A program made the position numbers and the translations under genes. Positions 4,746-41,334 of a stretch of DNA of 46,927 nt are shown in pieces. Every line of letters starts with the position of its first letter. Within the stretch, counting starts at the first letter, position 1. The stretch covers positions 1 to 46,927 of the forward strand of contig PWEA01000009.1 of assembly GCA_003553905.1 (NCBI GenBank), written 5' to 3'. The notes beneath the pieces are model-generated. The model was not told where the DNA came from and ran no database searches. It saw only the letters and a list, made by a program, of their open reading frames with translations. This DNA is from Candidatus Aenigmatarchaeota archaeon. Lineage in GTDB: Archaea > Aenigmatarchaeota > Aenigmatarchaeia > PWEA01.

Positions 4746-5491
4746 AGGTCTTCGAGTTTTCCTAAAAAGGTTCCGTCGAGTAGATATATTCCTGAATCTT
4801 CAATCTCCATCATCCCATTTTTTAACATCGGTCCGAGGAGGCGCTTTTCTCTGTCTTTATTCATGGGCATTCCTGTTATCAGTTCGTTGAATGTGGGTGT
4901 TATGATGATATTTTCCAGTTTTCCTTTACCAAACTTCTTTTTCACAGCATCCCTGTTTACAGGTCCCTTTACCCAACATGGAACTGTAGATGAAAACCCA
5001 AGGCTGTCCTTAAACTGAATCGATGGGTGCGAGTGTCCCCTGATAAGGGTTTCTGAGTTTTTAATATCTTCATCGGGCCAGGACTGGCCGTGGTTGAAGT
5101 AGAATTTACCTTCCCTGAAACCGCTGGTAGGTGATATCTCGACGTCTGCGTTACCTACTAGATCTTCTATATTTCCATCATGGTTTCCTTTGGATATCTT
5201 TATGTCTACGTGTCTGGACAGCTCTTCGAAGAACCCAGGAAGATTTTCTTTCTCGGAAACTGAAGTCCTCGGAACGTTGTGTTTGACGTCTCCGAGAAGT
5301 ACAAGCCTGTCTACTTCTGTGTCTTCTATGAGTTTAAGGATCCTCTTCTTCTGTCTACCTGCCCTGGGTGGGATGGATATACCTTTCTTGTAGATCTCAT
5401 ATTCGAGCCCGAGGTGAAGATCGGCTATAACTAGGGTTTTTTTCGTGAGTTCATCTATAACTAGAGCAGGCTTTTCCTTTAGAAATTTCAT
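4742..5491 (-). CDS. ICC-like metallophosphoesterase (COG1407 type)
   Basis: 249 residues of the calcineurin-like phosphoesterase fold. Metal motifs in order: VIADLHLG (D24, H26), LLGDVKH (D68), KGNHDG (102-106), and RGHSHPS further on. The DLHLGLE start and spacing match the archaeal COG1407 group, often linked by context to DNA metabolism; the substrate is unknown. Its start overlaps the stop of the upstream phosphoesterase gene by four bases (ATGA), so the two are translated as a pair. Confidence 0.8.
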   Translation of the reverse strand: MKFLKEKPALVIDELTKKTLVIADLHLGLEYEIYKKGISIPPRAGRQKKRILKLIEDTEVDRLVLLGDVKHNVPRTSVSEKENLPGFFEELSRHVDIKISKGNHDGNIEDLVGNADVEISPTSGFREGKFYFNHGQSWPDEDIKNSETLIRGHSHPSIQFKDSLGFSSTVPCWVKGPVNRDAVKKKFGKGKLENIIITPTFNELITGMPMNKDREKRLLGPMLKNGMMEIEDSGIYLLDGTFLGKLEDL

Positions 5492-6084
5492 CTTTCCAGC
5501 CTTTTTATTTCCTTGATTTCATCGCCTTCTACTATCAGTCTATAGCCCATAACTTTCTGTGAGGCAGATGCGTTTATGACCTTTGTGTTTCCAACAGTCG
5601 AGACCCCTTCTGCTTCATGTACATGGCCGCATAACCACGCCAAGGGTTGTTTCTCATCTATAATTTCTCTGAATTCAGGAACACCTATTCTAGCACCACT
5701 GTGAATTTCGTCTCTAATCCTCTGTGGTGGTTCATGTGACCCTATTATTACCTTACCCGGATCCACGTCTTCGAATCTTTCGATTACTTTTTTCTTCAGA
5801 TCCGGAAAATGATGTGATCCCACCATCACAAATCTTATGTTTTCATAGTCGAAACTGTCTATATTTTTCAGATATGGGAGCTTCTTCATTCCGTAGTCAC
5901 GGTTGCCTGGTATAAATGACTTTTTCTCTACATCCAGACCTGTGACCAGTTTTGAGAAAAAACGTTTTGACATGAAGTCACCGAGACCCAGGAAAACATC
6001 GTACTGCTCCCTTTCTACCTCGTCCAGGACCTCTCTAAGAAGTCTCATGTTTCCATGCGGGTCGGCAAGTGCAAATATTTTCAT
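5488..6084 (-). CDS. Metallophosphoesterase (COG2129 type), intact parent of the chimeric copy
   Basis: 198 residues. Metal motifs: ALADPHGN (D8, H10), LGLGDF (D36), PGNRDYG (60-64), IGSHEPP, and CGHVHEAEG near the end, so the catalytic set is complete. Homologues hydrolyse phosphodiesters or phosphomonoesters; the substrate is not predictable here. First gene of a two-gene phosphoesterase operon. Its first 60 residues and its promoter are duplicated at 12456-12686 (see there). Confidence 0.85.
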   Translation of the reverse strand: MKIFALADPHGNMRLLREVLDEVEREQYDVFLGLGDFMSKRFFSKLVTGLDVEKKSFIPGNRDYGMKKLPYLKNIDSFDYENIRFVMVGSHHFPDLKKKVIERFEDVDPGKVIIGSHEPPQRIRDEIHSGARIGVPEFREIIDEKQPLAWLCGHVHEAEGVSTVGNTKVINASASQKVMGYRLIVEGDEIKEIKRLER

Positions 6085-9210: not shown

Positions 9211-12033
9211 ATGGGGTTTAAACCAAACGAAAAACAAGACGAGCTTATAAAGAGTACCCAGGGCATATACTTGGTCGATGCCGGCCCGGGTACAGGTAAG
9301 ACAGTTACTCTGACAAGCAGATATACATATCTCCTTGGAAAGGGCATCGAGCCCGATGACATACTTCTCATAACCTTTACGAGAAACGCTGCGGATCAGA
9401 TGAAGGAAAAGATAATAAACAAATCCGATTACAGTCAAGCCAAACTAAGAGACGCTCCTATAAACACATTCCATGGTTACTGTAAGGGCCTCGTGGAGTC
9501 CTACGGTTTCGATGCACCCGACTATCTTGGAATAGACGATAGCATTACATCTACAACCAAAATTATAGAGAATGAGATAGTGGAAGAGAGAAAGTTTGGG
9601 AGATTCATGGACCAGTTCAAGGATAGACATCCCGAATACTCCGATTTTTACATGATGGTATATGATAGAACAAACCTTCTTCGTCTTATAAAATCACTTG
9701 CTTCTAAGGGAATAGTTCCGGTGAAAGATGGCTGGTACAGGAACGGTGAGACCTATCTCAATGGCAGTTTGGATAAGTTCAAAGAAGTTGTAAAAAAGCT
9801 CAACAGACCCAGAGAGGGTAAAAGAGGACCAAAAAACTCCGAGCTAATGGGGAGGCTTTACAGTTACAAAAACTGTTGTCTTACCGAAGATGCTCCATCC
9901 GATGAAGATGTGAGAGGAGGCAGGAATAAGAAGAAAGTGGACTGGGCCATTTTGAAAAAAGCCTTCGATGAAGACAGAGAAGACCTGAAGGATTTTGTCC
10001 ATGATATTTATTTCGAGTATATAGAGTACGCACTATCGAAAAACTATCTCAACTTCAACTTCTATCTTCTCTTTGCATTTGTTCTTCTGTGTGAAGATGT
10101 GGATGTAATCGAGGAAAATGGATTTGGATACGTTATGGTCGATGAGTTTCAGGACACAAATGAGATACAGCTTAAGATTGCGATGCTTCTTTCGGACGAG
10201 GGAAATATCTCGGTCGTCGGTGACTGGAAACAAAGTATATACAGCTTTCAGTACGCCACCGTTGAAAATATACTGAGCTTTGAGGAAAGGCTCATGAAAT
10301 ACAAAGACGAGCTCAATGAAGATACAAAGAGAATAACATATCCGGTTGAAAACGTAACGAGGATAAACCTCGTTGAAAACTACAGATCAACCCAAGATAT
10401 AATAGATTTTTCAGAAGGGGCCCTTACTCTCCGTGCCAATCAGTATGAGAATATTCAAAGGAATGATATTCTAAGAAATATAACCTCTTTGAAATCAAAC
10501 ACAGAGTCCAGTGGTCTGATAGAAGTTTTCCACAGCCATGAAGAGATAAAGGCTATACTTGACCGTATACAGAGGATTGTTGGTAATCCTGAGTACACTA
10601 TAGAGAAGGACGATGAGGAGAGAATGCTCACCTATAACGACATTGCAGTTTTAAGTAGGACAAGAAAGTTCGGGCTTGATTTACAAAGAATGTCGAGAGA
10701 GTTTGGTGTACCTGCGGCCTATGAAGGTGGCATAGAGCTTTTTGAGACTGATCCTGCCGTACTCCTGTTGGCCTGGCTCAGGATAGTTGAATATAAGCAT
10801 TCAAGAAGGGGGTGGGCAGTGGTTCTAGAAGAGTCTGGTTACAGTTTGGATGAAGTAAAATACATTCTTGATGAGGAAGACTATCCTGAAAGTATGCTTG
10901 AGTTTCGAAAGGGGCTCGGTGATCTTGATGATATATCGTCCCTTGCAAGGTCAGTCTTTAGAAGATACGGTATAGATGACCCCTTTTCCGGTAAGATAAT
11001 TGAGGTTTTGAGAAACACTTTCCGTTCTTCATATATGAATCTCGGTGATATAGTTCATTTCATAGAAGAGAATATAGACTCTGGGAAGGTATATGAGGTT
11101 GACAGTACAACAGATCAAAACGTTGTAACACTTCAAACAATACATTCAGCCAAGGGCTTAGAGTATCCAGTTGTATTTATTTCTGATGTAAACTCCCACC
11201 GTTTTCCGGGCAGAGGAAGGGGTGGTGGAAGGATACAGTACGACGATCCGATTGGAATTCGTCAGAAAAAGGTATTTGTTGACGGGAACATGCCATACCT
11301 TTACGACAATTGGAGGATGGAAATACTTTCCAGATGTCTTGATAGGGGATACGATGAGGAAAGACGTCTAATGTATGTTGCGATGACTCGTGCAGAGAAG
11401 TTTTTATTTGTGACAGCAGATACAGAAAGAAAAAGCCAGTTTTTCAAGGACCTTGACTTTCAGAAAAGGGAGGTTAAACCGGACATAGATAGAATAGAGA
11501 GTGTTGGTACTGAAGTAGAAAAGTTTAAAATCGACAAAAAATCAGGCAAATCTCTAAAAAGTCTTCCTGTTAAGTCCGTGATGGAGGATAGAGAGGGAAC
11601 AGGGCGTGGGAAAGATTTTGGTACAAGCGTCCATGTGTTTGCAAGAAGATATGCCGAGGAAGGAACTGTGCAGCCACAGAACCCGGACGAAAGAAACGTC
11701 AAAGAACTTTTAGATTCCTTGGACGGCGATCTTTTGGTGGAAAGGGAATGTAGACTTCCACTTAATTTCAATGGGGATAGGATTGTTCTCATAGGAAATA
11801 TAGACCTTGTTTCAGTCGGAGAAGATGAGGTTTTGGTCGTTGATTACAAAACCGAAAGAAGTAAACCGACGGAGAAGGAGTACATTAAGCAATTGAGCGT
11901 ATACTACCATGTTGTCGATAGTAGGTATGCGGAAAGAAAGGTGCGTCCATGTATATATTATACAGAAGAAGGTAAGCTTGAAGAGATTGAGCCCCACACA
12001 CTTGATCAGATAAAAAGCTATATAGATTTCTAG
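9211..12033 (+). CDS. AddA-like UvrD/Rep-family helicase-nuclease
   Basis: 940 residues. Superfamily 1 helicase motifs are complete: DAGPGTGKT (Walker A, 23-31), LITFTRNAAD, VDEFQDTNE (310-318), VGDWKQSIYSFQ, VENYRSTQD, QTIHSAKGLEYPVVF (~645), and YVAMTRAEKF. The C-terminal ~180 residues are a RecB-type nuclease: GTSVH, IGNIDLVSVGEDEVLVVDYK (~860-879), and a final QLSVYY. This domain order is that of bacterial AddA, rare but known in some archaea. Substrate is inferred to be double-strand DNA ends. It ends four bases into the convergent chimeric gene. Confidence 0.85.
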   Translation: MGFKPNEKQDELIKSTQGIYLVDAGPGTGKTVTLTSRYTYLLGKGIEPDDILLITFTRNAADQMKEKIINKSDYSQAKLRDAPINTFHGYCKGLVESYGFDAPDYLGIDDSITSTTKIIENEIVEERKFGRFMDQFKDRHPEYSDFYMMVYDRTNLLRLIKSLASKGIVPVKDGWYRNGETYLNGSLDKFKEVVKKLNRPREGKRGPKNSELMGRLYSYKNCCLTEDAPSDEDVRGGRNKKKVDWAILKKAFDEDREDLKDFVHDIYFEYIEYALSKNYLNFNFYLLFAFVLLCEDVDVIEENGFGYVMVDEFQDTNEIQLKIAMLLSDEGNISVVGDWKQSIYSFQYATVENILSFEERLMKYKDELNEDTKRITYPVENVTRINLVENYRSTQDIIDFSEGALTLRANQYENIQRNDILRNITSLKSNTESSGLIEVFHSHEEIKAILDRIQRIVGNPEYTIEKDDEERMLTYNDIAVLSRTRKFGLDLQRMSREFGVPAAYEGGIELFETDPAVLLLAWLRIVEYKHSRRGWAVVLEESGYSLDEVKYILDEEDYPESMLEFRKGLGDLDDISSLARSVFRRYGIDDPFSGKIIEVLRNTFRSSYMNLGDIVHFIEENIDSGKVYEVDSTTDQNVVTLQTIHSAKGLEYPVVFISDVNSHRFPGRGRGGGRIQYDDPIGIRQKKVFVDGNMPYLYDNWRMEILSRCLDRGYDEERRLMYVAMTRAEKFLFVTADTERKSQFFKDLDFQKREVKPDIDRIESVGTEVEKFKIDKKSGKSLKSLPVKSVMEDREGTGRGKDFGTSVHVFARRYAEEGTVQPQNPDERNVKELLDSLDGDLLVERECRLPLNFNGDRIVLIGNIDLVSVGEDEVLVVDYKTERSKPTEKEYIKQLSVYYHVVDSRYAERKVRPCIYYTEEGKLEEIEPHTLDQIKSYIDF

Positions 12034-12635
12034 GCTTCGTTTTTTATGGGTTTGTAGTTCCACTCATCGAGTTCGTTTTCTATATCTTCATAGCTTTTAC
12101 CGCAAAGCATGCCGCCTGCTATAAACTCTTCCTGTGTTACATCTGCCAGACAAAAATCAGGGGGATTGAAACTTTCTTTTTCATTCTGTGATTCGAATTC
12201 AAAATCAACTAGAACAAGTCCCTCTAAATCCCCTTTGAAAACATCTATCTCTGCCGTTCTGTCCTTGTATTTTTTGTAGTAACGTACTTTCACAAGATTC
12301 TTTCCATCTATTTCTTTGAGTGCACGGAACTCGCCCTCTGTAAGTGGTATTGTATACTCCTTCTGCGTCGACGAGTCGCCGTTCTCGGGCTCCTTTTTTG
12401 TCATCATGTAGATATCCCCCTTTTTTCTTATTCGAATTATGGGATGTCTCATGTGCCCTGGGATAAATGACTTCTTCTCAACATCCAGGCTTGTGACTAG
12501 CTTCGAGAAAAATTTCTTTGACATGAAGTCTCCTAAACCTAGGAATACATCATACCCACCTTCATCAACCTCTTTGAGCACTTCCTTTAGAAGTCTCATA
12601 TTTCCATGTGGATCTGCCAAGGCAAATATTTTCAT
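12030..12635 (-). CDS. Chimera: first 60 residues of a phosphoesterase fused to a truncated CYTH domain
   Basis: 201 residues with an unbroken frame. Residues 1-60 copy the N-terminus of the phosphoesterase at 5488-6084 (52/60 identical), including DPHGN and GLGD, but the copy ends before the GNRD motif. Residues ~63-201 read as the later strands of a CYTH (triphosphate-tunnel) domain: IIRIRKKGDIYMMTKK, KVRYYKK, TAEIDVFKGDLEGLVLVDFE, then DVTQEEFIAGG and KSYEDIENEL. The usual CYTH opening with the ExExK signature is missing and appears replaced by the phosphoesterase piece. Neither half has a full active site as far as I can see. It may be a relic of a deletion between two genes or a new protein; purifying selection on the first part makes pure decay less certain. 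Confidence 0.7.
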   Translation of the reverse strand: MKIFALADPHGNMRLLKEVLKEVDEGGYDVFLGLGDFMSKKFFSKLVTSLDVEKKSFIPGHMRHPIIRIRKKGDIYMMTKKEPENGDSSTQKEYTIPLTEGEFRALKEIDGKNLVKVRYYKKYKDRTAEIDVFKGDLEGLVLVDFEFESQNEKESFNPPDFCLADVTQEEFIAGGMLCGKSYEDIENELDEWNYKPIKNEA

Positions 12636-32429: not shown

Positions 32430-33680
32430 ATGACGGCCTATTTGAAAACATATGGTTGCTGGACCAACTATTTAAACAGCGAAGTTATATCCGGATTCCT
32501 TAAGAGAGTGGGCTGTGACGTAACCAGCAACGAGGAGATGGCCGATGTTCTGATACTTAATTCATGTATAAGAGGCGATGTTTGTGGTGAGATTGCTGAT
32601 AAACTCAAGGAATGGAATAAAAACCACCCCGACAAAAAGATTATACTGGCAGGTTGCATGCCATGTTTTGAATATAAAATGGCCAGTGAACTGGTCCCCG
32701 AAGCTTCTTTATTGGGTCCTAACAACTGTAGGGATGTTCCAAAAACAGTTAAGAAGACAATGGATGGCTCTAGGGTAGAGTTTTTGGGGAACAGAACCGA
32801 GGATAAGTTTAGAGTTCCAAGGGTTTGCAAAAACAGTAATGTATTTATCTGTGAAATAAACCAAGGTCTTCCGGACTGCGTTCATGTAAACCAAGATGAA
32901 AATAAAACTCCATTTGTGAGTTATCAACCCCAGGATATTATCGAAGAAATAAAAAGGAACTTTAAATCAGGATCTAAGGAAATATGGATTTCTGCTGGTG
33001 ATACTGCTTCTTATGGTAAGGACATTGGAACAAGTCTACCAAAACTTCTAGAGAAGATCGTAAATATTTCTGGGAAGTTAAGGGTTAGGGTTGGGCCTCT
33101 TAAGGTTGATACGGTCAGACCAATCCTAGATGATGTCCTTGAGATTTATGGCTCAGAGAAAATATATTCGTCTGTTTGTATGCCGCTTGTTTCAGGATCG
33201 GATAAGATTCTAAGAAAAATGAACATGGACTATACATCCCAGGAATTTATCGATGTTGTAAAAAGATTCAGAGAAAGGTTCCCGGATTTAAGTCTGCACA
33301 CTGAAATTATAGTTGGTAATGAATTCGAGACACCAGAGGACTTCGAGGATACAAAAAGAGTTTTGGAAGAAATAAAACCGGATAGTACTAGAATTTCAGA
33401 ACCCCCCGAAGATAGTAAATCTGATGATGACGCCGAAATAAGAAGCAGAATCAAAAAGGCTTCTCAGTTCACAGAAAAAATTTCTCTTAGAAATAAGAAA
33501 AAAATTATTGGAAAAGAAGTAGAGGTATTGGTTACAGACAACGGTCCTGGTAAAAGACTATGGATTGGAAGAGATCCTAGCTACCGCAAAGTTCTCGTAA
33601 AAGATTCTTCCTGTCGTGTTGGGCAGTTCAAAGACGTTAAAATAAAAAAAGCTACAAAATCAGCCCTAATTAGTAATTGA
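32430..33680 (+). CDS. Methylthiotransferase-like protein lacking the radical-SAM cysteines
   Basis: 416 residues, full length for the MiaB/CDKAL1-like archaeal family. The N-terminal UPF0004 domain is intact with its three cluster cysteines (C10 in TYGC, C46 in LNSC, C76 in AGCMP). Where the family has CxxxCxxC after INxG, this protein reads INQGLPDCVHV (143-153) and no such motif occurs anywhere. The rest still aligns (EIWISAGDTASYGKDIGTSL, MPLVSGSDKILRKMN) and a TRAM RNA-binding domain closes it (~353-410). It cannot make a SAM-cleaving cluster in the usual way; a regulatory or scaffold role on tRNA is inferred. GGAGGTG lies 15 bases before the ATG. Confidence 0.8.
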   Translation: MTAYLKTYGCWTNYLNSEVISGFLKRVGCDVTSNEEMADVLILNSCIRGDVCGEIADKLKEWNKNHPDKKIILAGCMPCFEYKMASELVPEASLLGPNNCRDVPKTVKKTMDGSRVEFLGNRTEDKFRVPRVCKNSNVFICEINQGLPDCVHVNQDENKTPFVSYQPQDIIEEIKRNFKSGSKEIWISAGDTASYGKDIGTSLPKLLEKIVNISGKLRVRVGPLKVDTVRPILDDVLEIYGSEKIYSSVCMPLVSGSDKILRKMNMDYTSQEFIDVVKRFRERFPDLSLHTEIIVGNEFETPEDFEDTKRVLEEIKPDSTRISEPPEDSKSDDDAEIRSRIKKASQFTEKISLRNKKKIIGKEVEVLVTDNGPGKRLWIGRDPSYRKVLVKDSSCRVGQFKDVKIKKATKSALISN

Positions 33681-33836
33681 ATGTTTTAAACAATTTTTTT
33701 ATTTATTTTAAACCTTTAAAATTGTTTTTTGATATTATAAAGTGCCTTGAATGATTTATTATAGCTTTTAAAGGATTAAAATATCATATTATATACCATA
33801 GGTAGTAGAATATTCCTCGATTGACGAACCAAAAGG

Positions 33837-33844
33837 TTTAAATA
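33837..33844 (+). promoter_or_regulatory. TATA box of the racemase / ATP-grasp operon
   Basis: TTTAAATA; a start ~25 bases on (about 33865) would give a leader near 155 bases, long for this genome, where many genes look leaderless. Confidence 0.5.
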
Positions 33845-33864
33845 ATTTTTTGAGTAAAATAAGG

Positions 33865-34022
33865 TATAGGGATTATGTATAAGGTTTAACTGGGTTACCA
33901 GGTTCTTTATATCCCTTTTTTGGTCCACGGCGGGACTCAAAAGACCCATGTGGGTTTTTAATTCTAGTCCCAGCAATTAAGAGGCCAACCGATAAGACAA
34001 TAGATTTAAGGAGGCGTTTAGA
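33865..34022 (+). promoter_or_regulatory. Structured 5' leader of the racemase operon
   Basis: Stems visible by eye: CTGG-GTTA-CCAG (33890-33901); an outer stem GGGACT (33932-33937) with AGTCCC (33966-33971) enclosing an inner hairpin ACCC-ATGT-GGGT (33944-33955) followed by TTTTT. The ribosome site AAGGAGG is at 34008-34014. The nested stems with a U-run resemble an attenuator or riboswitch, but I recognise no known class. A decayed tRNA-like remnant is an alternative. Confidence 0.4.
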
Positions 34023-34937
34023 ATGGCTTTATTGAAGAAAAAAAGCATAAAGGATGATAAAATAGATGAAAATAGACAAATGGGCTTATTTGAGGATTTA
34101 AAGTCATTAGATCTTTTTTCTGATTCTTTTGATGGTACAAAGTTGGTAACAGATGCTATAAACGGTTTTGTAGGGAAATTGGAATCAGGTATACGTCTTA
34201 CTTTTAACAAAAACTGTTCGCCTAGTTCTAGTTTCAGGACAGCGGGTGTTCTTGGTGGTATGGGACCAGAAGCTACTCTTGATCTTCACAAAAAGATACT
34301 TTCGAAGACGGACGCAGAAAAAGACCAAGACAACATTCCTCTAATAATCTTCAACAACCCACAGATTCCCGATCGTTCTGATTTCATCCTAAACAAAGGA
34401 GATAGTCCTCTTGAAGAGATGATAAGGACAGCAAGATCCCTTGAGAGAGCGGGGGCAGATTTTATAGTTATACCTTGTAATACTGCACACCATTTTTTCG
34501 ACAAGATCGACTCATCTGTAGAAATAGAAACGATAAACCTTATAGAAGAGGTCACGGACCATATAAATAAAAACTATCCAGAATCCGAGAACATTGGACT
34601 TCTGATAACGACAGGGTCGATGGAAACAAAGGTATATTCGAATTTTATAAGAAAATCGGGTAGAACACCCCTTCTTCCCGAAAAAAACTTCCAGGAAAAC
34701 GTGATGAAATCAATATATGGAATAAAGAAGGGAGAAAAATCTAAAACAAAAGTAAAACTAAGACGGGCGACCGAGCATCTGATAAGACAGGGCGCAGACT
34801 TGGTAATAATGGGTTGTACAGAAATACCCCTGGTTCTGGAAAACGATGAGTTCCCTGTACCCCTTATAGATCCGGTCGATATCCTGGCCGAGAAAGTTAA
34901 AGAGGTGAGTAGATATGAAGGTAGCTATTCTGCATGA
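34023..34937 (+). CDS. Asp/Glu racemase-family protein with N-terminal extension
   Basis: 304 residues. The racemase fold begins at ~73 with AGVLGGMGPEATLDLHKKIL; both catalytic cysteines are present, C152 in VIPCNTAHH and C265 in IMGCTEIPL, so activity on aspartate or glutamate is expected. About 70 residues precede the domain (KSIKDDKIDENRQMGLFEDL, SDSFDGTKLVTDAINGFVGK), which family members of ~230 residues lack. Strong AAGGAGG ribosome site. First gene of a four-gene operon; its end overlaps the next gene by 23 bases. Confidence 0.85.
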   Translation: MALLKKKSIKDDKIDENRQMGLFEDLKSLDLFSDSFDGTKLVTDAINGFVGKLESGIRLTFNKNCSPSSSFRTAGVLGGMGPEATLDLHKKILSKTDAEKDQDNIPLIIFNNPQIPDRSDFILNKGDSPLEEMIRTARSLERAGADFIVIPCNTAHHFFDKIDSSVEIETINLIEEVTDHINKNYPESENIGLLITTGSMETKVYSNFIRKSGRTPLLPEKNFQENVMKSIYGIKKGEKSKTKVKLRRATEHLIRQGADLVIMGCTEIPLVLENDEFPVPLIDPVDILAEKVKEVSRYEGSYSA

Positions 34938-35847
34938 AGAACTTGAATGGAGTGAAAGAGAATTCAAAAGAACACTCGAAAGCAAGGGTACAGAACCCGA
35001 GCTTTTTGATGTGAGGACAACGGATTATGATGATCTCAAAAAATATGATCTTGTAATCAACAGGGTATATGCGAGCGTTGCTAACAGAAACTATAGCGCA
35101 CTTTTGAAAACACTCGATTTGCTCAGTAAACTTGAAGAGAGGGGAGTGGAATGTATAAACTCTCTAGAGACATCGAAGGCGGACTACAGTAAAAAATATG
35201 CTATAGAAAAGAGAAAAGAGAATGGCTTGGAAGTACCAAAAACAGAGTTTCTTTTGAACCTTACACAGGCGATAGATTTTGCTGAAGAACTGGGATATCC
35301 TGTAATTATCAAAAGGGATTCCGGCGGCCGCGGAAAAGACGTACAGAGAATAGACAACGAAGAACAACTCAGAAGTTATGTTGAAAAAATAGCTATTTCC
35401 GATAATCAGTACGTGGCTTCAGGTGGAAGGTACATAATACAGGAGTTTCTTGAACCTGCTAAGAAGAACGATGCACGGGTTGGCGTATTGAATGGGAGTA
35501 TATTGCTTTCATTTAGAAGAACTTTGGTAAGGACCGAGGAAAATGGCCAAAAGTGGCTTGCAAGTGTTTCAAACGGGTCACGGATAATACCATATGAGAA
35601 AACCCCCGAGGATATAAAGAAAGTTGCAATCGAAGGATCTAAAGCAATTGATGCAGTTTACAATGCAGTAGACATAGCCCTTACAGAAAGGGGTCCTGTT
35701 ATAATCGAGGACAACCCAACACCGAACTTCATAAACGATCCTGACAGGCCAGAGGATACAAAGGAAGATAAAAAGAATATGGAAAAATTGATAAACGGTT
35801 TCTTGGGTTACATCAAGGAAAGAGAAAAGGTTGAAATAAGGGTGTAA
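34915..35847 (+). CDS. RimK/LysX-like ATP-grasp ligase
   Basis: 310 residues. ATP-grasp landmarks: N-terminal Rossmann-like part (MKVAILHEELEW), YPVIIKRDSGGRGKDVQRI (nucleotide lysine and Gly loop, ~125-143), YIIQEFLEP, and metal ligands in GPVIIEDNPTPNF. RimK-like enzymes join an amino acid to a carboxylate through an acylphosphate; an amino-acid or peptide substrate is inferred. Translationally coupled to the racemase, whose product may be its substrate. GAGGTGAG precedes the ATG within the upstream gene. Confidence 0.82.
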   Translation: MKVAILHEELEWSEREFKRTLESKGTEPELFDVRTTDYDDLKKYDLVINRVYASVANRNYSALLKTLDLLSKLEERGVECINSLETSKADYSKKYAIEKRKENGLEVPKTEFLLNLTQAIDFAEELGYPVIIKRDSGGRGKDVQRIDNEEQLRSYVEKIAISDNQYVASGGRYIIQEFLEPAKKNDARVGVLNGSILLSFRRTLVRTEENGQKWLASVSNGSRIIPYEKTPEDIKKVAIEGSKAIDAVYNAVDIALTERGPVIIEDNPTPNFINDPDRPEDTKEDKKNMEKLINGFLGYIKEREKVEIRV

Positions 35848-35850
35848 AAA

Positions 35851-36951
35851 ATGGAACTGAAAAAAGGACTTGATTCTCCAGAAAAGGTCGTCGGTAGAAT
35901 AGAAGAGTTGATGGGAGATGTTGAATATGAAGAGGGAAAGGTTGCAGTTTGTTGTAATGATGACATAGTTCAAAATCCATCGGGATATTCTTCAACCAGA
36001 GAGCTTATTCCGATGCTCGATGAGTATCATGATACTTCCGTAGTTTTAGTTGGTGATTACATGGAAGATGGTTTTGTAGGCAAGACATATAGGCCGATTG
36101 AAAAAAATGGAGAAGTTAGGTTTGTGGAATATGAGACAGAGCCAATCGAACTTGAATGCGACGTACTGTTCGTTAGAGGAATGAACTATCATGCAAGCCC
36201 CTCGGAGGAAGAGTTTAAAAAACAGATGAAAATGCTAGGAGATTTTGATGTTGGTCGTTATATAAACACACCGGAAGCACAGTCCTTTCTTGAGTCAAAG
36301 GACAATTATAGTGAAAATCTGGAGAACGTTCCTATACCAGAGACGTATAACTTTGAAGATATATATGATCTAATGGAAGTCCTTGAGGAAGAAGGTAATC
36401 TAGTTGGAAAGCCACCCATAGGCGGCCAAGGAACAGGTGTATTGAAACTAGACAAGGACCAAGCCAACGAAAAATATTTACAAGAGTGTTTTGAGGGATC
36501 GATAGACGACTTTACATTCCAAAAACTTGTAAAACAGGAAGAAAAGGAGAGGGAAAGGAGATTTGTATTCTTAAATGATGAATATGACGTATACGATAAT
36601 CAAATAGACGGGGATTATGAGATAGTTGCTTCAAGAGAGATAATAAACAGGGATAGGCCATGGGATCCGGACGGAAAGGTTTTGGATAAGATAAGAAGGC
36701 TACATGAACCCGAAGAGGACGAAATAGAGATAGTTAATACGGTTATTGAGCAGACACCTCCAGGAACTATATTCGGGTGTGTGGATATGCTTGTTGACGA
36801 TGATGATAATAAATTTGTAATAGAAATGAATGGCAGCGGTACGGGCCTTTTCGGCGATTCTAAAGAAGCAGGAACAAAAGAATGGGGAGAAAGGTACTAC
36901 AACCTAACACCACATATGGTTAACTACGTTTGTAGACTTGTTGGTGATTAA
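35851..36951 (+). CDS. Glutathione-synthetase-like ATP-grasp protein
   Basis: 366 residues. The central KPPIGGQGTGVLKLD loop, FQKLVKQEEKERERRFVFLN and the closing TIFGCVDMLVDDDDNKFVIEMN have the layout of GshB-like ATP-grasp ligases, with E and N metal ligands in IEMNGSGTG. The N-terminal ~130 residues form the substrate-side domain (DVLFVRGMNYHASPSEEEF). The substrate is unknown. Three bases after the previous gene. Two different ATP-grasp enzymes in a row suggest stepwise peptide or amide synthesis. Confidence 0.75.
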   Translation: MELKKGLDSPEKVVGRIEELMGDVEYEEGKVAVCCNDDIVQNPSGYSSTRELIPMLDEYHDTSVVLVGDYMEDGFVGKTYRPIEKNGEVRFVEYETEPIELECDVLFVRGMNYHASPSEEEFKKQMKMLGDFDVGRYINTPEAQSFLESKDNYSENLENVPIPETYNFEDIYDLMEVLEEEGNLVGKPPIGGQGTGVLKLDKDQANEKYLQECFEGSIDDFTFQKLVKQEEKERERRFVFLNDEYDVYDNQIDGDYEIVASREIINRDRPWDPDGKVLDKIRRLHEPEEDEIEIVNTVIEQTPPGTIFGCVDMLVDDDDNKFVIEMNGSGTGLFGDSKEAGTKEWGERYYNLTPHMVNYVCRLVGD

Positions 36952-37825
36952 AACGAAAACACAGACTGTTCACCTGGTTACATCTTCTTCGAAAATAACC
37001 AAAGATGAATTGGAAAACGCTAAAAGATTTGTTAGAAACTTGGATTATAAATGCAGTTATTTTAGTTCTGTCATGGAAAACCATCTTGGTTTTGCTGGTA
37101 CACCGGAAAGTAGATCGAATGAAATAAATAGATCCTTGTGTACAGATGCTGATATAATCTGGGCTGTGAGAGGCGGTTACGGATCTGTCCAGGTAATAGA
37201 TAAGGTAAAATATTCTAAAGTAAAGAATAAGCTGTTTATTGGTTATAGCGATTTTTCACTTCTGTTGAATGTTATACACGATAAAACAGGTTTGATAACA
37301 TTACATGGCCCCATGCCCTCTAAAAATATTAGCGAATATCACGATGATAGCATGAATACATTGAAAAAGGCTTTGTCGTTTGAAAACTACAGTTGGTCTT
37401 TTGGAGACGAAAACGTGCTTGTTCCTGGTAAGTTTAAAGGAGATGTTGTTGGTGGTAACCTCGAGCTTTTTATTAGATCCCTCGGAACAGAATACGAGTT
37501 CGATTCAAACGGTAAGGTTGTTTTTCTTGAAGACAACAAAGTCAAGGGAAAGAACATATACGATATGCTTGAGCAGCTTAGGTTGGCTGGAAAGTTTGAT
37601 AAAGCATCAGGCATAGTAGCCGGTAAGTTTACAAATGCAAAACAACCGATGAAGTATGTGAAAGATTTTTTTGGGGACTTTGATATACCAGTTTTATATG
37701 ACATGGACTTTGGTCACGAGGAGCCAAACCTTACCTTTCCCATAGGAGCGGAATGTACTGTTGATCCCAGTTCAGAAAAGGTCTATTTTGATTTTGAAGG
37801 TAAACATAAACCTTGGTCTATATAA
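36944..37825 (+). CDS. S66-family serine peptidase (LD-carboxypeptidase / MccF-like)
   Basis: 293 residues from GTG 36944 (two TTG codons just before are alternatives; no ATG is near). The S66 triad is seen: S102 in FIGYSDFSLL, E196 in VFLEDNKV, H258 in DFGHEEPNLTFPIG. Members cut bonds next to D-amino acids in peptidoglycan peptides or inactivate peptidyl-nucleotide antibiotics. In this operon it fits trimming, turnover or self-immunity for a D-amino-acid-containing product, which is an inference. It overlaps the previous gene by eight bases. Confidence 0.85.
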   Translation: MIKTKTQTVHLVTSSSKITKDELENAKRFVRNLDYKCSYFSSVMENHLGFAGTPESRSNEINRSLCTDADIIWAVRGGYGSVQVIDKVKYSKVKNKLFIGYSDFSLLLNVIHDKTGLITLHGPMPSKNISEYHDDSMNTLKKALSFENYSWSFGDENVLVPGKFKGDVVGGNLELFIRSLGTEYEFDSNGKVVFLEDNKVKGKNIYDMLEQLRLAGKFDKASGIVAGKFTNAKQPMKYVKDFFGDFDIPVLYDMDFGHEEPNLTFPIGAECTVDPSSEKVYFDFEGKHKPWSI

Positions 37826-38150
37826 GACCCAGTAGACCGAAATATCCTATAACATAGTTTACAAGGAACGTCAAAAACCCTAAGAAAAAATACTCCTTTG
37901 GTGTGGTTTTAGGCACTACAAAGTTTGCCAACCCAACCCATGTGACTATTTGAAGAACCAATCTCATATGTGGAATCGGAACTAATCCAGCAATGGCCAT
38001 CACGTAGTCAAGAACATACATTATAAACAGCTGCCCTAGTACAGCTATTCCCAGGAGTTTATGTCCGGGTACACCCGAAGAAATTATTTTATTTCCTATT
38101 AAAAGTGTAACAAAACTCAGTATTATTTTCAGTATAAGGTTTATGATCAT
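37818..38150 (-). CDS. Four-helix membrane protein, unknown
   Basis: 110 residues, about four membrane segments (LILKIILSFVTLLIGN, LLGIAVLGQLFIMYVL, LVLQIVTWVGLANFVV, FFLGFLTFLVNYVIGYFGLL). Its ATG overlaps the gatE stop by four bases (ATGA), so it is co-translated with gatDE. No known role in tRNA amidation. Confidence 0.65.
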   Translation of the reverse strand: MIINLILKIILSFVTLLIGNKIISSGVPGHKLLGIAVLGQLFIMYVLDYVMAIAGLVPIPHMRLVLQIVTWVGLANFVVPKTTPKEYFFLGFLTFLVNYVIGYFGLLGLI

Positions 38151-39994
38151 TTTCTTTCATCCAACTCTTTTCTTAATATATCCGAAACCTTTTCGCCCTC
38201 CGCTTTACCTCCAACTTCTTGCATAACCAAGCCCATTAATTTTTTGAATGCTCTGTCTTTGCCAACAAGTTCCTCTTTGTCATCGACTACCTTTTTTACT
38301 ATCTTCGCCAGGCTTTTATCGTCGATCTTTTCTGTTTTATCTAGCACATCTTTCAGATCCTTGTCCTTGTTCAATAATTCTTCCAGTATTTTTCCAAATG
38401 AGTCCTTCGGAACCTTGCCTTCGTCTATACTTTTTATTATTTTTGTCAGCTTTTCGGAGTCAATCTTCTCGATGTCAAGGCCCTCCCTTTTCTTCAGATC
38501 TTTGAGTTCAATAGTAAGCAGGTTTGCAAGTGTCGGTAGGTCCATGCTAATACTTTGTCTGAGTTCTCTGAAAAGATCGTAAAATCTGCTGTCAAGGATC
38601 TCTTCTGCTAGGTGTTCAGAAAGACCTTCTTCAACCAAACCTTTCTTTTTCTTTTCAAGGCTTTCGGGAATTTCTATTGTTTCCAACTTTTTTTGTCCTA
38701 TCCGTATAGCAGGTACGTCGGTTTCAGGGTACATTCTTGCTTTTCCAGGTAAGGGTCTTGAATAGCTTGTGGTTCCATCGTCGTTTGAATCTCTTGTTTC
38801 CTCGGGAATCTCTTCCATCGCTTTCTTTGCCCTGTCTTTGACTGCTTCGATGGCTTCGTCCAAGCCCTTCGTTCCTGCAGCGACTACTAATACATCATCC
38901 TTTCCCGCATCAAATTTTTTCTTCAGTTCACCGAACTCATCTAATAGATCATATTTTTCTATATCTTCGTCCGTGTGTATTATACCACCCAAACCGTGTG
39001 CCTCTGCGTACTCTGAAAGTTCTTTCCCGAAGGTCTTATCACCGCTTATTTTGTTCGCCAACAAACCACCGAATCCCTTCAGTATAAAGGCCTTGATATC
39101 CTTGTCTTTCATAATCTTTCCGTAGAACTTGGAATCACTCCCTTCGAAGACTTGTCCGACGTCGAAAACATCATCCGGAACCGATGCGCCTCTTCGATTT
39201 AACTTTTCCTTTATCCCGAGAAGTGACTTCTGTCTTTCAACTTCCTTTCTTACAGTATCTTCCAAAATATCAAGTTCCTGCAAGCCTTTGACCTCTATTC
39301 TGGATCCTCCTTCTATTGATACGTTTACATCCTGTCTTATACTTCCTATCCCCCGTTGAACCTTTCCCGTTGCCCTTAACATATTTCCCAGGCTTTTTGC
39401 TACTTCCTTTGCATGTTCCGGGCTTTTTATATCAGGCGCTGTCCCGATCTCGACCAGCGGAATCCCGAGTCTATTGAGTCCATATATTACGGTATTTTCT
39501 TCTCTATTAAGAATTTGAGCACTCTCCTCCTCCAGACAGACGTTTTCAATTCCAACGGATCCCTGGCTCGTTTCTAAGGTACCGTTCATTCCGACGAGCA
39601 TGGTTCTCTGAAACCCGGAGGGATTTGAACCGTCTATAACGGTTTTTCTCATAGGATGTATTTCATCTGGCACTTCGCAGTCCAACATCTTTGTAATCTG
39701 TAATGATATTTCGAGTGCATCTTCTCTAATTTGATGTGGTGGCTCTTCGTCCAGTTCAACTTCACATGACTCTGAAGGATAGATCTTATAGATAAACTTT
39801 CTATCGCGAAGAAATTCATAGAGGGCTGCAGGATCCATTTCTCCTGTCTCTCCCGGAACAACTCTCAGCTTCCTAACTACTTCATCTTCTGGTTCTTCCT
39901 GCATCGAAGAACTGCAGTTGCAGAAAAGCTTCTTTGTGTCCAGTCTCTGGTGAACTTCTATACCACACTTGAATCCAAGTTTCTTGTAGTTCAT
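38147..39994 (-). CDS. gatE: Glutamyl-tRNA(Gln) amidotransferase subunit E
   Basis: 615 residues from ATG 39994 (start MNYKKLGFKCGIEVHQRLDT; a TTG six codons earlier is less likely). GatB-like cradle with ETDVPAI and RPLPGKARMYPETD, the archaeal AspRS-type insert (~250-390), and a YqeY-like C-terminal helical domain (KIVKKVVDDKEELVGKDRAF). Together with GatD it converts Glu-tRNA(Gln) to Gln-tRNA(Gln). GatDE is confined to archaea and is one of the best domain-level markers in the window. Confidence 0.93.
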   Translation of the reverse strand: MNYKKLGFKCGIEVHQRLDTKKLFCNCSSSMQEEPEDEVVRKLRVVPGETGEMDPAALYEFLRDRKFIYKIYPSESCEVELDEEPPHQIREDALEISLQITKMLDCEVPDEIHPMRKTVIDGSNPSGFQRTMLVGMNGTLETSQGSVGIENVCLEEESAQILNREENTVIYGLNRLGIPLVEIGTAPDIKSPEHAKEVAKSLGNMLRATGKVQRGIGSIRQDVNVSIEGGSRIEVKGLQELDILEDTVRKEVERQKSLLGIKEKLNRRGASVPDDVFDVGQVFEGSDSKFYGKIMKDKDIKAFILKGFGGLLANKISGDKTFGKELSEYAEAHGLGGIIHTDEDIEKYDLLDEFGELKKKFDAGKDDVLVVAAGTKGLDEAIEAVKDRAKKAMEEIPEETRDSNDDGTTSYSRPLPGKARMYPETDVPAIRIGQKKLETIEIPESLEKKKKGLVEEGLSEHLAEEILDSRFYDLFRELRQSISMDLPTLANLLTIELKDLKKREGLDIEKIDSEKLTKIIKSIDEGKVPKDSFGKILEELLNKDKDLKDVLDKTEKIDDKSLAKIVKKVVDDKEELVGKDRAFKKLMGLVMQEVGGKAEGEKVSDILRKELDERK

Positions 39995-40008
39995 AGACAA
40001 ACCAACTG

Positions 40009-41334
40009 TCAAAGTTTAGTTTGTGAGCTTCTTTCGGTGATCTCCCCGCGCATGTTCTCGGTCATAAGATCTTTGGCCTCTTCTTTGTTGTAGTTTCCAA
40101 GCAACCATGCTAGTTTTACGTAGGCTGTCTCGGGCAACATATCATTTAGGTTACCGATTACTCCGGTACTTTGTAGATCAATCCCGGTTTCGTAGATATT
40201 CATGTTTACCCTTCCGTTCAAACACTGCGAGGCCATGAAGGCTATGTTTTCTTCTTCATTGTACTTTTTTAGTGCTTCCATTATTTTCTTGTTGTTTGTG
40301 GGAAGGTGTCCCAAACCGGTTCCTTCTACAATCACTCCCTCGGTTTTTTCCAGTTGTTTTTTAAATATATCCGGATCCATACCTGGGTAGATCTTCACCA
40401 TCTCAACATTTTCTTCGAAGTGTTCCTTTATTTTCACCCTTCTTTTTTTGTCTTTCTTTCTATAGTCGCTTCTTATCATTTCAACTCCTAAACCTTCCCA
40501 GTGGACCTTTGCGTAGGGATCTGCGTTTATGGTTCTGAATGCATCCCTTCTTGAGGTATGCATTTTCCTTGTTTTTGTTCCGGGGTGAAGATAGCAGAAG
40601 GTATCGGACCTTTCGCCGTGCATGCATACCATGACTTCGGCCACCTCTGTTGTGGCGGCCTTTACTGCACATGTTAGATTCTGATGCGAGTCACTACTTC
40701 CTCTATCGCTGCTTCTCTGTGATCCCGTCAGTACAACAGGAATAGGAAGATCCTCGAAGACAAAGCTGAGCGCAGCTGCCGTATAACCCATCGTGTCGGT
40801 TCCGTGGGCTACAACAACCCCGTCTTTCCCGTTTTCTATCTCCTTCTTTACAGCTTTTGCTATAGTTACCCAGTCGTCGGGCGATACGTTTTCGGATAGA
40901 GTTTCTATAATTTTTTTTGCTTCTATATTGGCTATACCCGCTATCCGAGGAGCAAATGATACAAGTTCTTCTTCATCTACCGAGGGCTTGACAGCACCTG
41001 TTCTATAGTCTACTCGCGATGCTATAGTCCCACCGGCAATCAAAATTGCCACGTCTTTTTCCGTTTCCTTTTCGATGGATATACTTTTTATAGTTTCATG
41101 CCCCTTCTTTTCTTTTCTAGAATCGACCTTTTCTATTGAAAAATCACCAGACAGCTCGAGTCCTATATTGTATCCACTGTCAAGTTTTAGTATTATTATA
41201 TCTTTTTCATCTGTACCGGTTCTGGGCATCAAAATCCCATCATATTTCTTCTGTTTGTACGAGACTCTTATCCTGTCACCGGTCCTTATACCTTCTTTCT
41301 TTAATTTTTTCTTTAACTCATTGCTATATCGCAT
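40009..41334 (-). CDS. gatD: Glutamyl-tRNA(Gln) amidotransferase subunit D
   Basis: 441 residues. An N-terminal ~70-residue GatD-specific beta domain precedes an asparaginase-I-like core with catalytic T103 (LIAGGTIAS), T179-D180 (VAHGTDTMGYT) and a downstream Lys in KAATTE. It releases ammonia from glutamine for GatE. It lies 14 bases before gatE in one operon. Confidence 0.93.
   Translation of the reverse strand: MRYSNELKKKLKKEGIRTGDRIRVSYKQKKYDGILMPRTGTDEKDIIILKLDSGYNIGLELSGDFSIEKVDSRKEKKGHETIKSISIEKETEKDVAILIAGGTIASRVDYRTGAVKPSVDEEELVSFAPRIAGIANIEAKKIIETLSENVSPDDWVTIAKAVKKEIENGKDGVVVAHGTDTMGYTAAALSFVFEDLPIPVVLTGSQRSSDRGSSDSHQNLTCAVKAATTEVAEVMVCMHGERSDTFCYLHPGTKTRKMHTSRRDAFRTINADPYAKVHWEGLGVEMIRSDYRKKDKKRRVKIKEHFEENVEMVKIYPGMDPDIFKKQLEKTEGVIVEGTGLGHLPTNNKKIMEALKKYNEEENIAFMASQCLNGRVNMNIYETGIDLQSTGVIGNLNDMLPETAYVKLAWLLGNYNKEEAKDLMTENMRGEITERSSQTKL

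Follow-up and report, generated by a model that had tools for sequence, protein, structure and literature searches.

A compact operon of a racemase, two ligases and a peptidase

The stretch analyzed here (the window) comprises all 46,927 nucleotides of contig PWEA01000009.1, a ~47-kb piece of a 702-kb, 87% complete genomic assembly (GCA_003553905.1) assigned to the DPANN phylum Aenigmatarchaeota. At positions 34023-37825 it holds four complete open reading frames (ORFs), all on the + strand and separated by a 23-bp overlap, a 3-bp gap and a 14-bp overlap, which form a translationally coupled compact operon. The genes encode a pyridoxal phosphate (PLP)-independent Asp/Glu-type racemase (RAC), a RimK-like ATP-grasp ligase (RIMK), a divergent second ATP-grasp ligase (ATPG3) and an S66 LD-carboxypeptidase-like serine peptidase (Table 1). 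The racemase ATG is preceded by a strong Shine-Dalgarno motif (AAGGAGG), and no transporter/exporter, precursor or adenylating-enzyme gene lies inside the operon. An earlier note on this DNA had proposed a single four-gene unit of these families, with both catalytic cysteines in the racemase. The coordinates and overlaps hold, the same gene order recurs in other DPANN genomes, and the families are supported by Pfam and NCBIfam models, by profiles and by catalytic residues, as described below.

PF01177 racemases work with two cysteines. Both are present in RAC (C152 and C265) and, together with R118, Y232 and K235, are invariant across the nine racemases of the cassette, as we call this gene set and its relatives elsewhere. 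RAC matches Asp_Glu_race (PF01177) with an E-value of 3.5e-43 (148 bits, cut-off 31) and passes both the aspartate racemase model TIGR00035 (asp_race, 201 bits, cut-off 93) and the CuyB cysteate racemase model NF052483 (247 bits, equivalog cut-off 190; the racemase of genome G309 reaches 252 bits). Its closest solved relative is the aspartate racemase of P. horikoshii (1.9e-55), whereas its score against the glutamate racemase model TIGR00067, 25.8 bits, falls far under the equivalog cut-off of 146.65. Based on these family scores, D-Asp or D-cysteate would be a more likely residue than D-Glu. A 70-residue N-terminal extension of RAC is specific to this locus, being absent from the alignment of the other eight cassette racemases, and it had no match in Pfam.

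ATP-grasp ligases form amide bonds via acyl-phosphates. RIMK was assigned by the Pfam RimK model (E-value 2.6e-13), its residues K93, K133, D253, E265 and N267 are invariant in the cassette relatives, and its family profile matches RimK/LysX among the solved relatives. The product of the third gene, ATPG3, has a weak YheC/D-like match (5.4e-6) just short of the cut-off. The profile of its 10-member family matches the RimK-like family with 98% probability (E-value 3.4e-14), residues K187, E235, R237, D312, E325 and N327 are invariant in the 10 members, and the protein appears to be a weak but real ATP-grasp. Membership of the ligases in a family with an assigned, unrelated substrate had been named in advance as an outcome that would speak against peptide synthesis; both lie under the cut-offs for LysX, CofF, MptN and the RimK S6 ligase. 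The scores were 90 bits versus 275.6 for the LysX_arch equivalog (LysX/ArgX), 55 versus 300 for the CofF equivalog (F420 tailing), 84 versus 350 for the MptN equivalog, and, for the S6 ligase, 103 versus 143.4 with the rimK_fam subfamily model and 22 versus 331 with PRK10446. Two AlphaFold models built from two-sequence alignments were poor (mean pLDDT, a per-residue confidence score, of 30 and 50).

The peptidase carries the N- and C-terminal S66 domains (3e-24 and 6.8e-30, both above the Pfam cut-off) and the Ser-Glu-His triad (S104, E198 and H260), which is invariant in the cassette relatives. LdcA-type S66 enzymes cleave L-D bonds. The operon protein aligns end to end, in one piece, with an LdcA-type enzyme, while its score against the LdcA muramoyltetrapeptide carboxypeptidase model PRK11253 (108 bits), whose enzymes are defined by cleaving the bond from L-Lys or DAP to D-Ala, is below the equivalog cut-off of 378.

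Table 1. Features of the operon, its flanks and related loci (positions refer to the window unless a locus is named)
Feature	Position	Strand	Length	Basis or remark
Racemase, RAC	34023..34937	+	304 aa	PLP-independent Asp/Glu-type
RAC N-terminal extension	34023..34232	+	70 aa	alignment of cassette racemases
RimK-like ATP-grasp ligase, RIMK	34915..35847	+	310 aa	Pfam RimK
Divergent ATP-grasp ligase, ATPG3	35851..36951	+	366 aa	YheC/D-like match
S66 LD-carboxypeptidase-like serine peptidase	36938..37825	+	295 aa	PF02016 + PF17676; non-ATG start
Possible B recognition element (BRE)/TATA promoter, AAAAGGTTTAAATAATTT	33831..33848	+		by-eye reading, sequence only
Leader hairpin, inner terminator-like stem and U-run	33930..33974	+		folding z -1.45, not significant; leader had no match in Rfam
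Left flank of slot, MiaB-like methylthiotransferase gene (outside operon)	32430..33680	+		NCBIfam MiaB-like-B 4.1e-84; kept in congeners
Right flank of slot: small membrane protein, gatE, gatD (outside operon)	37818..41334	-		synteny kept in G003 and G005
Slot between MiaB-like gene and gatE side	33681-37817; L040:5314-8525; L041:3253-6366; L042:4153-7648; L049:7707-8822			
Cluster-flanking tRNAs	L130:6602-6676; L145:6620-6694; L146:381-455; L147:2833-2906			

The same cassette in other DPANN genomes

The genomes of GTDB were scanned with the S66 alignment, and the best match was found on the Pacearchaeota contig PFCU01000054.1 (L077). There, a RimK-like ligase, an ATPG3 homologue and an S66 peptidase (matching at 35%, 27% and 35%, respectively) stand in the same order as in the window, with 170 bp of contig left upstream of the RimK gene. 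RimK profiles were run on 371 genomes of the phylum of this contig and 200 of its order. As a result, we obtained RIMK orthologues in 13 distinct further genomes of the Pacearchaeota/Nanoarchaeota group, all scoring at least 217 bits, with the next best match at 68.

Two of these genomes (G309 and G516) have the racemase-RimK-ATPG3-S66 order exactly as in the window, and two (G578 and G496) have it with one inserted ligase, either glutathione (GSH)-synthetase-like (GSHL) or a circularly permuted ATP-grasp. Partial sets are found in nine more: racemase-RimK-GSHL-ATPG3 (G593), racemase-RimK-GSHL (G589 and G518), racemase-RimK-GSHL followed by a gene for a 440-residue protein (G270), RimK-ATPG3-S66 (G156 and G537), RimK-GSH-synthetase-like-ATPG3-S66 (G574 and G575) and, in G265 (L128:7213-11494), RimK with a YheCD-like ATP-grasp, where an alanine-racemase-type (PLP) gene and adjoining C39-like peptidases stand in for the PF01177 racemase and S66. 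Conserved co-occurrence in archaea, the check proposed for the four-gene unit, is thus what the genomes hold. With the window included, ATPG3 is present in 10 of the 14 clusters, S66 in 9 of 14 and an adjacent PF01177 racemase in 9 of the 13 loci that could be checked (all but G156); this racemase is single-copy in all nine genomes having one. Since RIMK is present with partner genes at every locus while the others vary, it is the constant core of the cassette, and its recurrence with partner genes at 13 other loci cannot be chance.

Shared descent and probable horizontal movement

In the phylogenies, the cassette racemases fall on one side of a branch separating them from 11 free-standing racemases of the phylum (support 99/98), cassette RimK forms its own clade, set apart from 18 further RimK-like sequences of the phylum (support 100), and cassette S66 does so relative to 34 others, including two from the phylum of the window (support 95). 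The window racemase is closest to that of G309 by both tree and identity, and RIMK is closest to its G309 counterpart in identity (45%). None of the four genes has an orthologue in five congeners (77-94% complete), and ATPG3 has none among 156 genomes of its phylum. One other phylum member (G124) exceeds 200 bits with the RimK profile, but as a solitary gene with no cluster, and the set was seen in no other genome sampled from the phylum. The earlier note had considered that a scattering of the genes in close relatives would count against its reading; the set is absent there, not scattered. Given that the cassette is conserved between phyla, absent in congeners and united by this clade structure, we infer from sequence comparison that the linked gene set probably spread horizontally within DPANN.

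The GC content and codon usage of the cassette are like those of the rest of the window, and a foreign base composition was therefore rejected. As composition does not mark the cassette as foreign, the claim of transfer rests on distribution and trees. No tRNA or Rfam element was found at the window insertion site. Four other clusters are flanked by tRNAs, with tRNA-Asn upstream of two and tRNA-Glu just past the end of two, which suggests tRNA-linked insertion at those four. A viral or plasmid origin was also considered and rejected: ATPG3 had no match in plasmids or viral contigs and RIMK no relative in viral contigs, and plasmids and phages yielded ordinary RimK-like matches alone, at 24-27% identity.

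The chromosomal slot is itself conserved. The congener order of PKD protein, MiaB-like gene, variable interval, small membrane protein, gatE and gatD is complete in G003 and also seen in G005, and the contig of G004 stops inside the slot region. Because both flanks are syntenic with congeners, the cassette belongs to this genome and contamination was ruled out. In G003 the interval encodes a ligase of the GCS2 type together with an ATP-grasp and an AstE/AspA hydrolase. G005 has a protein of no assigned family, one of 493 residues whose match of the ATP-grasp type is weak, and again an AstE/AspA hydrolase. G004 carries a phosphosugar-mutase-like gene along with genes for a short protein, weakly matching ATP-grasp, and for a PHP-type protein. 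In three genomes of the same order (G006, G007 and G012) the MiaB gene and the gatE side converge directly on each other, leaving the slot empty, and in one of the same class (G024) it holds a single ATP-grasp. ATPG3 is distantly related to the slot ATP-grasps of G003 and G024 (about 1e-6 to 1e-8), and the G270 cassette, which lies in another phylum, has a gene distantly related to that of the 493-residue protein of G005 (2e-8). The stretch from the MiaB-like gene to the gatE side is a site of exchange: in four congeners it is occupied by four different gene sets, mostly ligases with a hydrolase, and related families of the order have nothing there.

Two further observations were made beside the operon. 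A second ligase locus conserved in the genus (L073:4748-11060, on contig C22 of G000; also L071, L072, L075 and L076) encodes a C39-like peptidase fused to a mechanosensitive channel domain, a tandem pair of RimK-like ATP-grasps and, on the opposite strand, an ATP-grasp, and may represent a further system for a peptide or osmolyte. Elsewhere in the window, the ORF at 12030-12635 starts with a sequence that nearly copies the N-terminus of a phosphoesterase (5488-6084) and then runs on into unrelated sequence, as in a partial duplication or fusion.

A candidate pathway and its alternatives

By analogy with known systems, we lean toward the view that the cassette is a biosynthetic operon moving horizontally among DPANN archaea, and that its product is a short peptide made without the ribosome and containing a D-residue. 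In favor of this view are the recurring gene order, the cassette clades of RAC, RIMK and S66, the invariant catalytic residues, the single PF01177 gene in each of the nine genomes with the racemase, and the absence of the set from congeners, of which G003 and G005 hold other ligase-plus-hydrolase sets in the slot. The substrate of the PF01177 racemase would be an acidic L-amino acid, L-Asp (or cysteate) being the most likely, which it would turn into the D-form. Via an acyl-phosphate, the RimK-like ligase would couple an acidic residue to an amino acid, peptide or carrier serving as acceptor. The second ATP-grasp ligase, elsewhere also a third, would add the next amide bond, and the S66 serine peptidase, predicted to be cytosolic, would cut at the L-D bond and so trim, proofread or recycle the product. 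The reaction order and the amino acids used are as we infer them; an envelope component, a solute or thiol, and a signal to the host are candidate roles for the product. Ligation of a D-acidic residue into a short peptide, with trimming or recycling by S66, is proposed because of the analogy with RacD-AslA of Lactococcus lactis, where an aspartate racemase and an ATP-grasp D-Asp ligase in one operon bring D-Asp into peptidoglycan (PMC4155827). That pair, like Aslfm of Enterococcus faecium, shares with 9 of our 13 checkable loci an Asp-type racemase and an ATP-grasp ligase in one operon. Here, however, the ligases are RimK-like, come in pairs or triples and are joined by an S66 peptidase, and this archaeon, whose genome was not surveyed for wall genes such as Mur ligases, is not known to have a peptidoglycan precursor. 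The comparison is one of gene content, with function on our side predicted.

Several findings weigh against this reading. Four of the 13 checkable loci have no PF01177 racemase, and none was found genome-wide in G156, G537, G574, G575 and G265, although these are drafts and the absence is soft. S66 is missing from 5 of the 14 clusters. ATPG3 evolves fast (20-25% identity), and the solved structures that its family profile matches first are graspetide synthetases (AMdnB, CdnC and MdnC-type; best 1.9e-9), with RimK/LysX also matched. In the racemase-less genomes, which are incomplete, the D-residue may be supplied otherwise or may not be needed. The alanine-racemase-type gene that the G265 cluster carries instead fits the need for a D-residue and was counted in favor. 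A peptide containing D-Asp or D-Glu had been suggested earlier for this operon: the peptide-making unit is strengthened by the co-occurrence, while D-Glu is disfavored by the glutamate racemase scores, and the five genomes without a PF01177 racemase make a D-residue in every member less certain.

The graspetide match also favors a different explanation, in which the ligases would tail or cyclize a protein or peptide encoded elsewhere, as in RimK-S6-like tailing or a graspetide-like ribosomally synthesized and post-translationally modified peptide (RiPP); S66 would then serve as the cognate peptidase. Graspetide synthetases modify ribosomal peptides, those of the microviridin type are the nearest solved structures to the ATPG3 family by profile, and the RIMK profile leads to RimK/LysX. 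Moreover, peptidase-linked ATP-grasp branches without visible precursors have been described (PMC8939145). Nevertheless, no conserved precursor-sized ORF was found near the 14 clusters: an all-against-all comparison of the small ORFs within 2.5 kb returned nothing beyond flanking-gene fragments, frames derived from tRNAs and unremarkable small genes of the flanks. In contrast to graspetide clusters, the operon encodes neither a precursor peptide nor a transporter or GG peptidase, and a racemase with an L-D-specific peptidase would be unexpected. We thus regard modification of a ribosomal product as unlikely.

In a peptide antibiotic system with self-immunity, the ligases would build a toxic peptide and S66 would be an MccF-like immunity enzyme. 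MccF-type S66 is among the solved relatives (7.7e-20), and the patchy, horizontally exchanged range would suit conflict genes. However, MccF aligns by phmmer in two pieces, where the LdcA-type enzyme aligns in one, and the long linker or loop between domains that defines MccF is not found in the operon protein (30 residues here versus ~60 in MccF). Besides the exporter, precursor and adenylating-enzyme genes that the operon lacks, there was no PADLOC hit, on which ground anti-phage defense was also rejected. The antibiotic and immunity option of the earlier note therefore retains little support, and we consider it very improbable.

Least probable is the scavenging of bacterial muropeptides after the manner of B. 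subtilis YkfABC (an S66 carboxypeptidase, an epimerase and an endopeptidase), in which racemase and S66 would degrade peptides of the wall and the ligases would put their amino acids to new use: S66 and an acidic-amino-acid racemase do resemble that catabolic set by family, but two or three ATP-consuming ligases serve no purpose in catabolism, RIMK is constant while S66 is dispensable, no importer or endopeptidase is present, and the racemase belongs to neither the YkfB nor the glutamate racemase type.

Relation to known systems and implications

By profile, RIMK and ATPG3 belong to the superfamily of RimK, LysX, MptN and CofF, yet both stay under every curated cut-off and cassette RimK is a clade of its own. 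Likewise, the peptidase shares the S66 fold domains and the Ser-Glu-His triad with LdcA and MccF but differs in its sub-equivalog score, its shorter linker than MccF and its cassette-specific clade. Iyer et al. 2009 (cited in PMC8939145) reportedly described amidoligase-peptidase gene neighborhoods, with ATP-grasp or GCS2 ligases beside a peptidase and no nonribosomal peptide synthetase (NRPS). Compared by description only, our operon similarly combines peptide-ligase genes and a peptidase without NRPS, and the slot cassettes of G003 and G005 are also of this kind; it differs in pairing a racemase and S66 with RimK-like ligases, and in its DPANN host. The operon belongs with the ATP-grasp peptide-ligase operons having peptidases and is unusual in combining a racemase with S66, in being distributed among DPANN archaea and in being exchanged as a cassette. 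In the open literature searched, no description of a racemase, S66 and RimK-like ligase set in DPANN was found, nor any described archaeal system with this set, in agreement with the earlier note.

DPANN archaea are thought to live on hosts, having lost most of their biosynthetic capacity, and the use of a mirror-image amino acid would be a chemistry not expected of cells so reduced. A D-residue peptide operon, conserved and exchanged in several of their lineages, would, if true, mean investment in a specific small molecule. More tentatively, the cassette could represent a novel class of natural product from archaea, namely a D-acidic, ribosome-independent peptide of DPANN symbionts (0.5-1.2 Mb genomes), moving between DPANN phyla and swapped at one slot with other ligase-hydrolase cassettes, as if lineages traded alternative surface or host-interaction peptides. 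The operon provides a defined gene set for asking about the surface, solutes or signals to the host of DPANN archaea, and adds a candidate anabolic use for D-aspartate in archaea.

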